Assembly (NCBI GenBank): GCA_021786095.1
Contig: JAJYNX010000062.1
Coordinates: 1 to 50,814 of the forward strand
DNA from: Actinomycetes bacterium
GTDB lineage: Bacteria; Actinomycetota; Acidimicrobiia; Acidimicrobiales; RAAP-2
DNA length: 50,814 bases
Reading direction: 5' to 3'
Made by a program: the position numbers and the translations under genes. Shown here piece after piece: positions 8,072-44,693 of the stretch (position 1 is the first letter of the stretch; every line of letters starts with the position of its first letter). The notes beneath the pieces were generated by a model. That model saw only the letters and a list, made by a program, of their open reading frames with translations. It was not told the origin of the DNA and did no database searches.

Positions 8072-8890
8072 CTACTTCACTTGTTCTGGCGGCACTCGGT
8101 CGTCGTCGCGCCGATCGTCCACGTCGTCCAGCGCGTGGCGAAAGTCACCCACGAACTCCTCCACGCGCGTGGTGCTCGCGCCGTCGAGCAGCAGCGACAC
8201 CAGCGCGGAGCCCACGATGACGCCATCGGCGAAGCGGGCCGCGTCGCGCGCCTGGACGGGGGTGGTGATGCCGATGCCGACGTACACCGGGACGTCGCTG
8301 ACGTCGCGCAGCGCCTCCACGACGCGGCGCGCGTCTCCGAGGTCCGCGGCGCGTCCGGTAACGGCCATGCGCGCGGCGGCGTAGGCGAAGCCCTGCGTCG
8401 CGCGCGCCAGGAGCGCGACGCGTGGTGGTGGGCTCGACGGCGCCACCAGGTACACGGTGGCCACGTCGTGGTCCGCGCAGGTTCGCGCCCAGGGTGACGC
8501 CTCCTCGGGTGGCAGGTCGGGGATGATCGCACCACGGAGCGCGGCTCGCTCGAAGGCTTGCGCCGCCCGGTCCAGGCCGTAGTGGTGCACGACGTTGTAG
8601 TAGGTCATGGCGACGAGGGGCACGTCGACGTCCAGCGTCGCCAGCTCCGCGCACACCGAGTCGAGGGTCGTGCCGGCCGCCAGCGAGCGTTGCGCGGCCT
8701 CTTGAATCACCACGCCGTCCATGACCGGATCCGAGAACGGCAGCCCGATCTCGATGGCGTCGGCCCCCGCGTGCGCCGCGGCCTCTACGTGGCGGGCCCA
8801 GTCGGGCGTGGCGCCGGCCATCAGGTAGGGAACGAGAGCGGTGCGCCCACTGGCGCGCGTGCGCCGCAGCGCGTCCTCGAGCGAGGTCAC
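8072..8890 (-). CDS. trpA: Tryptophan synthase alpha subunit
   Basis: A 272-residue TIM-barrel protein that cleaves indole-3-glycerol phosphate to indole and glyceraldehyde 3-phosphate. The catalytic glutamate and aspartate are visible in '[15 protein letters not shown]' (about residues 47-61). The phosphate-binding 'YVGIGITTP' and '[11 protein letters not shown]' segments are also present. It starts at a GTG that overlaps the trpB stop by four bases (GTGA), so translation is coupled, as fits the 1:1 alpha-beta complex. It is the last gene of trpCFBA. Confidence 0.97.
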
Positions 8891-10065
8891 GACGCCCCCC
8901 GGAGGATCGCGCGAACCTGGGCGACGTCCTTGTCACCGCGGCCCGAGAGGTTCAGCAGGACCGACGAGCCGTGCGGCACTGACCGGCCCGCCTCGCGCAC
9001 CAACCACGCCACGGCGTGGGCCGTCTCGAGGGCGGGAATGATCCCCTCGTCCTCGCTGAGCACTTGGAGCGCGGCGACGACCTCGTCGTCGTCGGCGGTC
9101 ACGTACTCGGCCCGTCCGCGAGCGGCCAGGTCGGCGTGCTCCGGTCCGATGCCGGGGTAGTCCAGACCCGCCGAGATCGACTCGGCCTCCTCGATCTGGC
9201 CGAACTCGTCCTGGATGAGCAGGGAGCGCATCCCGTGCAGGACGCCCGGCGCGCCGACGCCGACCGCGGAACCGCCGGCGGCCTCGACGCCCACCAGGCG
9301 CGACGGGCCGTCGACGAAGCCCGCGAACACGCCGGCCGCATTCGAACCACCGCCGACGCACGCGACGACCACGTCGGGGTCACCCACGCCGAGGTCGCGC
9401 AACTGGCGAGCGGCCTCACGTCCGATCACGCTCTGGAACTCACGCACCATCCACGGAAAGGGATGGGGCCCCATCACCGAGCCGATGCAGTAGTGGGTGT
9501 CCGCGACGCAGGTCACCCACTCGCGCAGCGCCTCGTTCACGGCGTCCTTCAGGGTGCGGCTGCCCGAGGTCACGGGCACGACCGTCGCGCCCAGCAGCTC
9601 CATGCGAAACACGTTCAACTCCTGACGCACGATGTCCACCTCGCCCATGAAGACGGTGCACGCCAGGCCCAGGCGCGCCGCCGCCGTCGCCGTGGCGACG
9701 CCGTGCTGACCAGCACCCGTCTCCGCGATGACGCGGCGCTTGCCCATGCGCTGGGCGAGCAGCGCCTGGCCCAGGACGTTGTTGATCTTGTGCGAGCCGG
9801 TGTGGGCGAGGTCCTCGCGTTTGGCGAAGACCCGCAGACCCACTCGTCGCGAGAAGCGCTCCAGCGGCGTCACGGGCGTAGGTCGACCCGCGAAGAGAGC
9901 CAGCTCGCTCGCCAGCGCGTGCGCGAAGGACTCGTCCGCCCGCGCGTCGCGATAGGCCTCCTCCAACTCGAGGCAGGCGGGCATGAGCGCCTCGGGCACG
10001 AAGCGACCACCGAAGTCGCCGAAGTGGCCCCGCTCGTCCGGGGCGCCCATGAATCCATCGCTCAC
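8887..10065 (-). CDS. trpB: Tryptophan synthase beta subunit
   Basis: A 392-residue PLP enzyme that condenses indole with serine to give tryptophan. The N-terminal '[15 protein letters not shown]', the PLP lysine in 'HTGSHKINN' (about residue 85), '[12 protein letters not shown]' and the PLP phosphate loop 'CVGGGSNA' are all intact. This is the TrpB1 type that pairs with TrpA. It starts at a GTG two bases after the trpF stop; a GAGAGGAG site lies inside the end of trpF. It overlaps trpA by four bases. Confidence 0.98.
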
Positions 10066-10067
10066 AC

Positions 10068-10706
10068 CTACTCCTCTCGCTCGAACCAGCGCCGCGCGGC
10101 CTGGACGAAGTCACGCACCGCTGCGGGGTCCTTTCGACCGGGCGACGACTCGGTGCCCGACGCGGCGTCCACGCCCCACGCGCCGGTTTCGCCGAGTACT
10201 CGTGCGACGTTGGCGGCACTGAGTCCACCAGCGACGATCAGGGGTCGCCGGAATCGTCGGCCCGCGAGGGGCGACCACGTATGCGCCCGCCCGCTGCCGG
10301 GTGACGGGCCGTCCACGAGGATCGCGTCGGCGCGTTCCTCGTCGACCTCGTCGTGCACCGTGGCGCCGACGGCCAGTACCGCGATCACCGCGATCCCGCG
10401 TTCGCGCAGCTCCTCGTAGAGGCTGACCGACACCGGGTCGTGCAACTGCACGGCGTCCAACGCCACGGCGTCCAGGGCGCGGCGGATGACGTCATCGCCG
10501 CGCCCTCGAAAGACGCCCACCCGGATCGCTCGCTCGCCGACGAAATCGGCGATGGCGGCCGCGCGCTCGACGTCGACCTCGCGCGGTGACGCCGCCAACA
10601 CCACGCCCAGGGCGTCGGCGCCCGCGTCGAGCACGATCGCCGCGTCCCCGACACTCGTCACGCCACAGATCTTCACTAGGTGTGCGCGGTCGGTGAGGTC
10701 AATCAC
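10068..10706 (-). CDS. trpF: Phosphoribosylanthranilate isomerase
   Basis: A 212-residue TIM-barrel enzyme that converts N-(5-phosphoribosyl)anthranilate to the ribulose isomer (CdRP). The catalytic cysteine lies in the N-terminal 'VKICGVT', 'AVQLHD' follows in the middle, and '[17 protein letters not shown]' near the C-terminus holds the catalytic aspartate and phosphate loop. It starts at a GTG that overlaps the trpC end by eight bases. Many well-known actinobacteria (Streptomyces, Mycobacterium) lack trpF and use the bifunctional PriA instead, so a dedicated trpF argues for a lineage outside those groups. Confidence 0.95.
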
Positions 10707-11490
10707 GGCCGCGACGCTTCACGCTGGCCAACTCGCGCACCGCGCGCGCCGGATCGCTCGCTCGCACCAGTGACTCTCCGACCAGGACGGCGTCGAAGCC
10801 GTCCGCGGCCGCGCGCTCGACGTCGGCCACGTCGCGCAGCCCCGACTCGGCGACGGCCACGACGGTCGGCGGCAGTGCCGCGACCACCGCCGCCGCCCGC
10901 TCACCACGAACCTCGAAGGTGCGTAGATCGCGCTGGTTCACGCCCACCAGTGTCGCCCCCAGCGCAATCGCCCGGCGGGCCTCGTCGAGGTCGTGAACCT
11001 CGACGAGGGCATCGAGACCGCAGAGTGCCGACACCTCCAACAGGTGAGCGCACTCGTCGTCGTCCAGTGCCGCGACGATGAGGAGCACCGCACTCGCGCC
11101 GAACTGGAGCGCGTCGATCACGTCGTTGGCACTCACCGTGAAGTCCTTGCGCAGCAGCGGCAGGGTGCACGCGTCGTGGGCGGCTCGCAGGTCGCCCAAC
11201 GAGCCGGCGAAGTGCTCCTCGTCGGTCAGCACCGACAGCGCCGCGGCACCGCCGTCCTCGTAGGCCTTTGAGAGGACGGCCGGATCGAGGTCGCGATTCA
11301 GCCAGCCCTTGGAGGGTGATCGGCGCTTGATCTCGGCGATCACGCCGAGGGCGTCGCCGGGGCGCAGCGCCGCGCGGAATCGTGAACGGCACGGCGTCAC
11401 CTCGTCGAGGCGCCGACGCCAGTCGCGATGGTCCGCCGCGACTCGTGCGCGATGGAAGCGCATGATGTCCTCGAGGTAGGCGGTGGCCAT
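10699..11490 (-). CDS. trpC: Indole-3-glycerol phosphate synthase
   Basis: A 263-residue TIM-barrel enzyme that closes the indole ring from CdRP. 'VIAEIKRRSPSKGWL' (about residues 48-62), 'LRKDFTV' and 'GVNQRDL' are the standard substrate and catalytic segments. It is first in trpCFBA. The ATG at 11490 lies six bases downstream of TACGAT with no Shine-Dalgarno sequence, suggesting a leaderless operon transcript. It is divergent from trpD, which is unusual since trpD commonly precedes trpC. trpE and trpG are not in this window. Confidence 0.97.
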   Translation of the reverse strand: MATAYLEDIMRFHRARVAADHRDWRRRLDEVTPCRSRFRAALRPGDALGVIAEIKRRSPSKGWLNRDLDPAVLSKAYEDGGAAALSVLTDEEHFAGSLGDLRAAHDACTLPLLRKDFTVSANDVIDALQFGASAVLLIVAALDDDECAHLLEVSALCGLDALVEVHDLDEARRAIALGATLVGVNQRDLRTFEVRGERAAAVVAALPPTVVAVAESGLRDVADVERAAADGFDAVLVGESLVRASDPARAVRELASVKRRGRD

Positions 11491-11496
11491 CCCGAA

Positions 11497-11502
11497 ATCG
11501 TA
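11497..11502 (-). promoter_or_regulatory. -10 element TACGAT of trpCFBA
   Basis: TACGAT on the minus strand ends exactly six bases before the trpC ATG. Together with TAGCCT at 11526 on the other strand it forms a compact divergent promoter pair. No clear -35 was seen. Confidence 0.5.
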
Positions 11503-11525
11503 GTGGTCACGGATCGGTCCACGGC

Positions 11526-11531
11526 TAGCCT
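11526..11531 (+). promoter_or_regulatory. -10 element TAGCCT upstream of trpD leader ORF
   Basis: TAGCCT ends six bases before the ATG at 11538. This is the same spacing as at trpC and several other starts, so the transcript probably begins at or near that ATG. Confidence 0.45.
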
Positions 11532-11537
11532 CTCCCT

Positions 11538-11570
11538 ATGGTCACCCACGCCTCTCCTCGGCGGCGCTGA
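11538..11570 (+). CDS. Possible 10-residue leader peptide of trpD
   Basis: A very short frame, MVTHASPRRR then TGA, begins six bases after a TAGCCT element and ends so that its stop shares one base with the trpD start (TGATG). The layout suggests a leaderless mini-ORF whose translation delivers ribosomes to trpD by termination-reinitiation. It contains no tryptophan codon, so classical trp attenuation is not indicated; it does contain three arginine codons in a row. Whether it is translated is inference. Confidence 0.4.
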   Translation: MVTHASPRRR

Positions 11571-12586
11571 TGGAGTTCTTCGCACGCGACGTCCTCAATC
11601 CCCTGGTCCGTGGAACGAGCATGGAGCGGGCCCAGGCTCGCGAGGCCCTGGCCGAGATCCTCGAGGGGCGCGTCGAGGCGGTGCACATCGCCAGCTTCCT
11701 CACCGCGCTCACCATGAAGGGTGAGACCGCCGAAGAGATGACCGGCTTCATCGACGCCATGATCGACGCCGCCACCACGTTCGAACTCGAGGGTGACGCG
11801 ATCGACATCGTCGGAACGGGGGGCGACCAACTGCACACCGTGAACATCTCCACGATGGCGTCACTGGCCGTGGCGGGCTGTGGCGTCCCCGTCGCCAAGC
11901 ACGGCAACCGGGCCGCCTCCTCGTCAGTTGGCTCCGCTGACGTGCTCGAAGCCCTGGGCGTGCGTCTCGAGACGTCGCCGGCTACCGTTCGGGCCTGCGT
12001 GGAGGGGGCGTCCATCGGCTTCATGTTCGCCCCGACCTACCACCACGCCCTGGGCTACCTCACGCCGATTCGCCGAGCGCTCTACTTTCGCACCGTGTTC
12101 AACGTGCTCGGGCCGCTCGCCAATCCGGCACGCGTGCGACGAGCCCTGATCGGCGTGGCACCGGCGTCGCACCTCGACCACATGGCGCGCGTGATCGGAT
12201 CGCGCGGCACTGATCTGTCGATCCTGGTGAGCGGCGACGACGGTCTCGACGAGCTCTCGCTCGGCGGTCCGTCGACCCTGCACCGGGTGACGCGCTCGGG
12301 GACGACGGTGGAGCGCATCGACGCCGGCGCGGAACTAGGGCGACGTCACGGGGTGGACAGTCTGCGCGGCGGAGACGTCACGCACAACGTCCGTGTGGTG
12401 CGCGCGTTCCTCGACGCCACCACCGGCCCCGTCTTCGACATCGCCTGCGCCAACGCCGGCCTGGCGCTCGTGGCCGCCGGCCGTGCGACCACGCTGTCCG
12501 ACGGCTTCGAGATGGCGAGCGCCAGCGTGCGCGACGGCCACGCGGCGCGCTCGCTGGAGCGGCTCGTCGCGATCTCCAACGCCTAG
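11570..12586 (+). CDS. trpD: Anthranilate phosphoribosyltransferase
   Basis: A 338-residue enzyme that joins anthranilate to PRPP. The PRPP-binding 'DIVGTGGDQLHTVNIS' (about residues 80-95), 'KHGNRAASSSVGSADVLEALG' region and 'FAPTYHHALGY' are diagnostic. The ATG at 11570 shares its A with the stop of a 10-codon leader frame, so coupled translation is likely. It is transcribed away from trpCFBA and convergent with the gamma-carbonic-anhydrase-like gene, whose stop overlaps its own by four bases. Confidence 0.97.
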   Translation: MEFFARDVLNPLVRGTSMERAQAREALAEILEGRVEAVHIASFLTALTMKGETAEEMTGFIDAMIDAATTFELEGDAIDIVGTGGDQLHTVNISTMASLAVAGCGVPVAKHGNRAASSSVGSADVLEALGVRLETSPATVRACVEGASIGFMFAPTYHHALGYLTPIRRALYFRTVFNVLGPLANPARVRRALIGVAPASHLDHMARVIGSRGTDLSILVSGDDGLDELSLGGPSTLHRVTRSGTTVERIDAGAELGRRHGVDSLRGGDVTHNVRVVRAFLDATTGPVFDIACANAGLALVAAGRATTLSDGFEMASASVRDGHAARSLERLVAISNA

Positions 12587-13107
12587 CCCTCTGACAGCGT
12601 GCGCAGTTCGCGACGGTACCGGCGGGCGTTGGCCACGTAGAGGGCGGCTCCCTCGGCGATGGCACCGCGGTCGCTGGCGCCGAGCTTGATGGTGGCGGGC
12701 ACGCCCACCGCGAGAGCCCCCTCGGGTACGTCGGTGCGGTTGCGCACCACGGCGCCCGCGGCGACGGTCGCCCCGGTGTGCACGTGCGCGTGGTGCAGCA
12801 CCACCGAACCGCTGCCGACCAGGGCTCCGTCGTGGATCACGCACCCCTCCAGGTGAACCAGGTGACCGATGACGCAGTCGTCACCCACGACCGTGGGGAA
12901 CTCCGCCACGGCGTGAACCACCGTGCCGTCCTGAATGGACGTCCGCTCCCCCACGATGATGGTGCCGTAGTCCCCGCGCAGCACCGCACCGGGCCAGACC
13001 GAGGCGTCGGCGCCCAGGCGCACGTCACCGATGATGACCGCGTCGGGGTGCACGAACGCCTCGGGATGGATCGTGGGCACCCGCTCGCCCAACGCGTAGA
13101 TCGCCAT
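12583..13107 (-). CDS. Gamma-carbonic-anhydrase-like hexapeptide-repeat protein
   Basis: A 174-residue left-handed beta-helix protein. It shows repeated hexapeptides (AVIIGDVRLGADASVWPG and similar) and the metal histidines expected of gamma-class carbonic anhydrases: H in 'TVVHAV', and H in 'IGHLVHLEGC'. The N-terminal 'PTIHPEAFVHPDAV' is typical of the YrdA/PaaY-like branch. Members bind zinc or iron, but many have no measured anhydrase activity. The ATG at 13107 has AGGAGGG just upstream; the frame is open further upstream into the neighbouring gene. It is the last gene of the DUF512-der-zinc ribbon operon, nine bases after the previous stop. Confidence 0.88.
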   Translation of the reverse strand: MAIYALGERVPTIHPEAFVHPDAVIIGDVRLGADASVWPGAVLRGDYGTIIVGERTSIQDGTVVHAVAEFPTVVGDDCVIGHLVHLEGCVIHDGALVGSGSVVLHHAHVHTGATVAAGAVVRNRTDVPEGALAVGVPATIKLGASDRGAIAEGAALYVANARRYRRELRTLSEG

Positions 13108-44143: not shown

Positions 44144-44572
44144 TCACTGATCACGACGCGTCAGCAGTTGTCGCGTTCGCTCATCCTCCTCGCCGCCGAA
44201 CAGCACGTCCAGGGCGGTGCGAAAGAACGGCTCCTGGGGCGCCGCGAGATGAAACAGCGTCACGCACGAGCGCAACTTGACCACGTCAGGGCCGAGCACC
44301 ACTGCCGCACCCAGAGAAGCGTGCTCCAGCACGGCCGACACGGCCGCGCGCAGCCGTGGCCCGAGGAGGGGGTGCGCCAGGTACTCTCTCGCCTCCGCGA
44401 GGTCGGCGATCCCGTAGTAGTCGGAGTTCGCGCTCGAACCCAGGCCGCGCAGTTGCGGCAGCACCCACCAGATCCAGTGGCCGACCTTTCGGCCCGCCCG
44501 CAACTCACGCAACGCCTGGTCGAAGGTGTCGGACTGGGCGTCCACGAAGCGCTGCAGGCCGTCTGACGTCAT
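44144..44572 (-). CDS. DUF1810 family protein
   Basis: A 142-residue all-helical protein. 'GLQRFVDAQSDTFDQALRELRAG' region and 'KVGHWIWWVLPQLRGLGSS', then 'YYGIADLAEAREYLAHPLLGPRL', match the DUF1810 (YjfI-like calpastatin-annotated) family closely. Homologues are short cytoplasmic proteins without known function. The ATG at 44572 gives the standard N-terminus; no good ribosome-binding site or leaderless -10 is obvious. It is surrounded by unrelated single genes. Confidence 0.92.
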   Translation of the reverse strand: MTSDGLQRFVDAQSDTFDQALRELRAGRKVGHWIWWVLPQLRGLGSSANSDYYGIADLAEAREYLAHPLLGPRLRAAVSAVLEHASLGAAVVLGPDVVKLRSCVTLFHLAAPQEPFFRTALDVLFGGEEDERTRQLLTRRDQ

Positions 44573-44693
44573 CGCGCGCAGACCAGTGGTACTACCTCGG
44601 GTCGCCAACTCCCCTCGCGCGTGCACTCCCCCACGTCGACACCCTACGACTGAGCCGCCCTTCCAGCGCGTACCGCGAGGCCGTCCGTCGAGG

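Follow-up and report, generated by a model that had tools for sequence, protein, structure and literature searches.

A putatively leaderless mini-ORF at the start of trpD alternates with an in-frame trpD start among acidimicrobial relatives

Results

The divergent trpC/trpD region

We analyzed the region between the tryptophan genes trpC and trpD in a 50,814-nucleotide stretch of DNA, hereafter called the window, from Actinomycetes bacterium (Acidimicrobiia, Acidimicrobiales; GenBank assembly GCA_021786095.1, contig JAJYNX010000062.1, positions 1 to 50,814 of the forward strand). The genes trpC-F-B-A lie on the minus strand and trpD on the plus strand; 79 bases separate the divergent trpC and trpD start codons, and the next gene call downstream of trpD is on the opposite strand. 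Between a -10-like hexamer and trpD lies a short open reading frame (ORF) of ten codons, the mini-ORF; the final A of its stop codon is also the first base of the trpD ATG (Table 1). The original prediction had placed the -10, the six-base spacing, the ATG at 11538, the ten codons, and the TGATG junction correctly, as read directly from the window sequence, and translation confirmed that the mini-ORF holds no tryptophan codon. The names of trpC and trpF are those of the best model matches, which fall below the curated cut-offs, whereas trpD, trpB, and trpA pass theirs.

Table 1. Features of the window discussed in the text
Feature	Position	Strand	Basis
-10-like TAGCCT of the trpD promoter	11526..11531	+	Sequence; TANNNT 6-7 bases before the start codon in 67/82 divergent genus loci; genome spike at spacing 6
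Spacer CTCCCT, six bases, between TAGCCT and the mini-ORF ATG	11532-11537	+	Sequence
Putatively leaderless mini-ORF, MVTHASPRRR plus TGA	11538..11570	+	ATG 11538-11540, 10 codons, TGA 11568-11570; equivalents in 46/82 divergent loci
TGATG stop/start junction, 1-nt overlap of mini-ORF and trpD	11568..11572	+	Sequence; last base of TGA is A of trpD ATG
trpD, anthranilate phosphoribosyltransferase	11570..12586	+	TIGR01245, 336 bits (cut-off 199)
-10-like TACGAT of the divergent trpC promoter	11497..11502	-	Six bases before trpC ATG 11490; TANNNT 6-7 bases before trpC start in 78/82
trpC, indole-3-glycerol-phosphate synthase, putatively leaderless	10699..11490	-	NF001377, 249.8 bits, just under cut-off 260
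trpF, phosphoribosylanthranilate isomerase, GTG start as listed	10068..10706	-	Best match NF002298, 130.6 bits, under cut-off 215
trpB, tryptophan synthase beta	8887..10065	-	TIGR00263, 538 bits (cut-off 392)
trpA, tryptophan synthase alpha	8072..8890	-	TIGR00262, 183 bits (cut-off 102)
Further coupled mini-ORF: TAGGGT, six bases, GTG, 21 codons, ATGA, into a 142-aa gene (44144-44572)	44569-44634	-

Relatives and sorting of loci

TrpD was searched in 61 and then in 99 genomes of the genus, which apparently comprises uncultured bacteria. The 99 genomes yielded 94 trpD 5' regions, of which 82 have the divergent trpC/trpD layout. Left out of the count were two genomes without a match (G079 and G115), one with a weak match (E 1.5e-5) taken as another protein (G036), and two without the 5' end (G015 and G082). 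Among the divergent loci, L162 was counted from a partial trpC match. The trpC matches of L005 and L162 are both partial and may reflect frameshifts in the assembled genomes. The remaining 12 of the 94 loci have no trpC match in the available stretch, some of these stretches being short; three of them have an in-frame trpD start after TANNNT, and in nine trpD lies right behind another ORF. As a side observation, in nine genus members (L033, L034, L183-L188, and L190) the trpD start coincides with or lies close to the stop codon of an upstream ORF whose end reads, by eye, ...WWD; a small number of order-level loci, such as L038, L039, and L044, have a similar upstream-ORF end before trpD.

Loci were sorted by the motif TANNNT followed after 6 or 7 bases by ATG or GTG and at least three codons, the most upstream candidate within 75 bases being taken. 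Where a mini-ORF was present, the trpD start was defined as the in-frame start nearest to the mini-ORF stop. This choice favors closeness, and shuffled sequences were judged by the same window of -8 to +3 nt.

Three apparent ways of starting trpD in the genus

Of the 82 divergent loci, 67 retain a start codon 6-7 bases downstream of TANNNT. It opens a mini-ORF in 46 of them and is itself the putative, in-frame start of trpD in the other 21. A mini-ORF that is not conserved in frame among relatives would have refuted the original prediction; the survey of 94 loci did not refute it.

In the 46 mini-ORF loci, the reading frame is 7-11 codons long and stops between -8 and +3 nt from the in-frame trpD start. 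The distance is -4 in 28 loci, -1 in 12, -8 in three, +1 in two, and +3 in one. The spacing from TANNNT is six bases in 44 loci and seven in two, and the start codon is ATG in all but one, which has GTG. Eleven different junction sequences occur (ATGA 17, GTGA 10, TGATG 7, TAATG 5, and seven others once each), and the mini-ORF stands in three kinds of frame relation to trpD, represented by 40, 5, and 1 loci. When the same stretches were shuffled, 7.4% of the shuffles placed the mini-ORF stop within -8 to +3 nt, compared with 46/46 of the actual loci, which are related and do not count as 46 independent events. The arrangement of mini-ORF and trpD is not due to chance.

In the 21 in-frame loci, the same start codon is continuous with trpD and adds 4-16 residues before the conserved block. 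The remaining 15 divergent loci (the class 'S/other') comprise 14 that lack a start codon behind the -10 and one, L022, that is N-masked at the promoter. Of the 14 unmasked loci, 13 carry a Shine-Dalgarno (SD)-like GAGAGG or GAAAGG before trpD, compared with 1 of the 46 mini-ORF loci. Correspondingly, the mean duplex energy with the anti-SD sequence is -5.8 kcal/mol in the 15 loci without the start codon (the masked one included) and -3.0 in the mini-ORF loci. Beyond the genus, we read trpD in 16 of 24 genomes of the order; nine have an in-frame trpD start 6-8 bases after TANNNT and none has a mini-ORF.

The states are exchanged between close relatives. On a tree of TrpD plus TrpC with 70 rows (the 67 mini-ORF and in-frame loci and three others), these two states require five changes, all forced by well-supported branches. 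A quicker tree of 96 rows gave eight changes among the three states, fewer of them forced. Both counts are independent of the root, and they do not tell gain from loss at trpD. For instance, the in-frame locus L165 sits among the mini-ORF loci L153, L016, and L017; the in-frame loci L009, L010, and L140 adjoin the mini-ORF loci L008, L011, L135, and L136; and the window's own mini-ORF clade adjoins an in-frame clade of 12 rows. In the groups of L165 and L009, the start codon lies 45 bases (in-frame) or 50 bases (mini-ORF) before the same TrpD codon, which means that the frame has shifted between the two states.

The mini-ORF peptide is not conserved

To compare mini-ORFs, we used pairs of loci with TrpD at least 82% identical and mini-ORFs of equal length. 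Changes at codon positions 1, 2, and 3 of the mini-ORF numbered 209:228:230, a flat distribution, whereas the in-frame N-termini gave 101:54:99, with fewer changes at position 2; since the pairs overlap and are not independent, these and the following pair counts are descriptive. Of 67 such mini-ORF pairs, the promoter was better kept than the mini-ORF in 59, and the mini-ORF DNA was less alike than trpD in 57. A further 27 pairs differ in mini-ORF length. The peptides MVTHASPRRR, MVSRDCARR, and MVILASDRWR share little sequence at a TrpD identity of 91-93%; the peptide is retained in a few sister pairs, such as MSRRPRRALR in L008 and L135. A function of the peptide was rejected on account of the flat codon-position changes. 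The peptide is not conserved, and these sequence comparisons indicate that what matters is being translated rather than the product.

Arginine is moderately over-represented, which we leave without explanation. It accounts for 97 of the 387 residues in the 46 mini-ORFs, compared with 71.6 ± 6.4 in dinucleotide shuffles. In 24 representatives stripped of the last codon, it accounts for 43 of 184 residues, compared with 30.7 ± 4.2. The three adjacent arginine codons that had been highlighted in the window are not fixed among relatives. Arginine control was rejected: the excess survives the removal of the last codon and the restriction to representatives, but the codon positions are unbiased.

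No sign of attenuation

Tandem tryptophan codons, the hallmark of an attenuator, were not found. Tryptophan codons of any kind occur in 2 of the 46 mini-ORFs. The mini-ORF overlaps trpD, unlike an attenuator, which has its terminator and antiterminator between peptide and gene. A scan of 11300-12700 found no terminator-like site, a search of 11300-11800 with the Rfam covariance models (T-box and other leaders) gave no match at E <= 1, and the leader folds less stably than most shuffles (z +1.6). On these four counts (tryptophan codons, terminator, Rfam, and fold), Trp attenuation was rejected. The earlier suggestion that any control at this site would be of another mode agrees with these results.

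Putative leaderless starts elsewhere in the genome

To place the locus in its genomic context, we used a sample of 622,006 bases with 560 genes, called by our own codon-usage procedure and not by a published gene finder; it includes a first sample of 290,556 bases. TANNNT precedes an in-frame RTG at a spacing of six bases in 71 of the 560 genes and at seven in 26, whereas the other spacings average 6.2 with a maximum of 15 (spacing 8). Judging from this spike, leaderless starts look common in this genome. The divergent partner trpC also looks leaderless, with the motif in 78 of the 82 divergent loci (the exceptions are L008, L022, L135, and L162).

Besides trpD, we traced two coupled candidates among relatives, searching 61 of the 99 genus genomes for each. 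One is the minus-strand mini-ORF of the window that leads into the gene starting at 44572 (Table 1); the frame 44144-44581 gave no NCBIfam match. The gene was matched in 13 of the 61 genomes. Of 15 loci besides its own, one (L232) has the coupled layout, with a counterpart of 21 codons that ends in GTGA and encodes a different peptide, and 14 do not, including the second-best match, L233. The other gene was called NlpC/P60-like by reading of the protein, without a family search; all 61 genomes were matched and 30 loci read. An in-frame start at spacing 6-7 was seen in 26 of them, a coupled mini-ORF in two, and no motif in two. In the window's own genome (L247; gene start L200 3305 on the minus strand), the frame is nine codons long and closes with a GTGA overlap, whereas it is in frame in a 90%-identical relative (L248). 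The separate case, L273, has TTGA. Each of the two coupled NlpC/P60-like cases comes from a single assembled genome, in which a sequencing error is possible.

Discussion

Proposed mechanism and alternatives

We consider it probable that trpD is reached by leaderless initiation on the mini-ORF, followed by termination and reinitiation at the trpD start codon. Judging from the spacing of the -10, transcription of trpD would start at or beside A11538 and give an mRNA without a 5' untranslated region. A ribosome would begin on the 5'-terminal AUG, translate a ten-codon ORF that is unimportant as a peptide, terminate at the UGA that overlaps the trpD AUG by its final A, and reinitiate there with little or no help from an SD sequence. 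The mini-ORF would in this way provide trpD with a leaderless entry like that of its divergent partner trpC, although the trpD frame stops short of the transcript's 5' end. The original prediction had likewise proposed a leaderless leader peptide that feeds ribosomes to trpD by reinitiation, and the conservation in relatives speaks for it, with the start at 11538 deduced from the -10 spacing.

Several observations weigh against this model. A scan of 11300-12700 found no consensus sigma-70 promoter (-35 plus -10), so that the assignment of the trpD promoter rests on the -10 and its conservation. Among the 82 divergent loci, the 14 unmasked ones described above do without a start codon after the -10. 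Furthermore, the anti-SD duplex energy is -5 or lower in 10 of the 46 mini-ORF loci, and the window, at -5.0 kcal/mol, belongs to these; some direct initiation at trpD may occur in such loci with possible SD pairing. In the genome sample, the excess of coupled mini-ORFs is modest, comprising 8 of the 560 genes at a spacing of six bases and 4 at seven, against a mean of 1.9 and a maximum of 5 elsewhere. Eight of these 12 cases fall in the first of the two samples, and the spacing-6 coupled genes number 7 in 290,556 bases versus 8 in 622,006 (L194, a case from the first sample, is missing from the coupled list of the larger one). The generality of the arrangement is weaker than the first sample suggested.

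The possible SD pairings and the related loci that lack the start codon would also fit a short leader from which ribosomes initiate trpD directly at its own start codon, with the mini-ORF translated idly or not at all. Such a scheme gives no reason, however, why a start codon lies 6-7 bases behind the -10 and its frame stops at the trpD start in 46 of 46 loci, and it leaves both the exchange with the in-frame start and the uneven distribution of GAGAGG/GAAAGG unexplained. We therefore regard it as unlikely. Still further from the mark, in our judgment, is frame slippage or readthrough at the junction, which would yield a fused, N-terminally extended TrpD. The in-frame relatives do carry extra residues before the conserved block, and a fusion protein has been reported as a minor product of the AUGA junction of ppe2 (PMC11260477). 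Yet three different frame relations occur between the mini-ORFs and trpD, and no common slippery sequence was seen among them by eye, no formal search having been made.

A leader peptide that senses, for example, arginine, as an attenuator or arrest peptide, could draw on the arginine excess. Against it stand the wide variation of the peptides between relatives, the unbiased codon positions, and a predicted leader of only 32 nt that shows neither terminator-like site nor Rfam match and folds more weakly than most shuffles; we give this explanation hardly any weight, slightly less than slippage. Finally, the ATG at 11538 might merely coincide with a purine transcription start, as the 14 unmasked divergent loci without an ATG there could suggest. 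Since the start codon is kept in 67/82 loci, and the frame it opens always either stops at the trpD start or continues as trpD, such a coincidence is extremely improbable.

Origin and significance

The probable coupling of a putatively leaderless mini-ORF to trpD raises the question of how such ORFs arise. We tentatively propose, without holding it to be the likelier outcome, that leaderless mini-ORFs are N-termini that have shifted out of frame. Where an organism begins translation of many genes right at the mRNA 5' end, the 5' start codon would stay in place, and reinitiation at overlapping stop and start codons could let the segment from there to the first indispensable residue slip into and out of frame. 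A gene would then flip between a directly leaderless and a mini-ORF-coupled form, as in the five changes at trpD and in the NlpC/P60-like gene, which is in frame in 26 of the 30 loci read but coupled in the window's own genome and in L273. If this were true, such shifts would supply bacteria generally with upstream ORFs that serve no regulatory purpose.

Leaderless upstream ORFs have been counted before in mycobacteria; the question is what keeps them and where they come from. Here, one housekeeping gene in 82 genomes of one genus appears with direct leaderless, mini-ORF-coupled, and SD-like starts, which seem interchangeable. This amounts to a natural experiment which argues that ribosome delivery can be the sole reason for such an ORF. 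Gene finders and small-protein catalogues should also take warning, since they would score the mini-ORF as translated although no selection on its peptide is visible.

Comparison with known systems

A search of open-licence papers on trpD, Acidimicrobiia, and leaderless upstream ORFs returned no title on this locus. Canestrari and coworkers reportedly described, in 2020, mycobacterial polycysteine leaderless short ORFs that lie before a metabolic gene and sense cysteine. Unlike in these, no conserved sensing residue was seen in the trpD mini-ORFs.

In mycobacteria, coupled leaderless small ORFs are over-represented, with 23/220 versus 32/1000 random sites, and some cases keep the leaderless start and the linkage, but not the peptide (Shell et al., 2015; PMC4633059). 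The mini-ORFs described here resemble them in size (10 codons in the window and 7-11 in the 46 loci, compared with 5-50) and, as in some of those cases, the linkage to trpD is kept and the peptide is not. The mycobacterial set was defined by transcripts beginning at RTG, whereas here the transcript start is deduced from a TANNNT that lies exactly 6 bases before the ATG in the window and 6-7 bases in the 46 loci, by the rule that found them. The window has TGATG instead of the RTGA tetramer, which is present in 27 of the 46 orthologous loci. Our study also differs in that it concerns another lineage and follows one gene across 94 loci, in which the mini-ORF alternates with an in-frame start.

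At uPPE2-ppe2 of Mycobacterium tuberculosis, reinitiation occurs at an AUGA junction, and its dependence on translation of the upstream ORF was shown by reporters (PMC11260477). The two systems share an out-of-frame upstream ORF and a stop/start overlap, and ppe2 itself has no SD sequence. Unlike the trpD mini-ORF, which is presumably leaderless and without an Rfam match, uPPE2 has its own SD sequence and lies behind a B12 riboswitch. Termination-reinitiation has also been described for overlapping gene pairs with 1-nt (UGAUG) and 4-nt (AUGA) overlaps (Huber et al., 2019; PMC6728339). The overlap is 1 nt in the window and 1 or 4 nt in 40 of the 46 loci, but the first ORF here is a mini-ORF with an unconserved peptide. 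The idea of ribosome delivery has been named in a review (PMC12548453). The kind of arrangement is already known; to it our study adds a further lineage, the overlap of a single base in the window, and the observation that one and the same gene switches between states.
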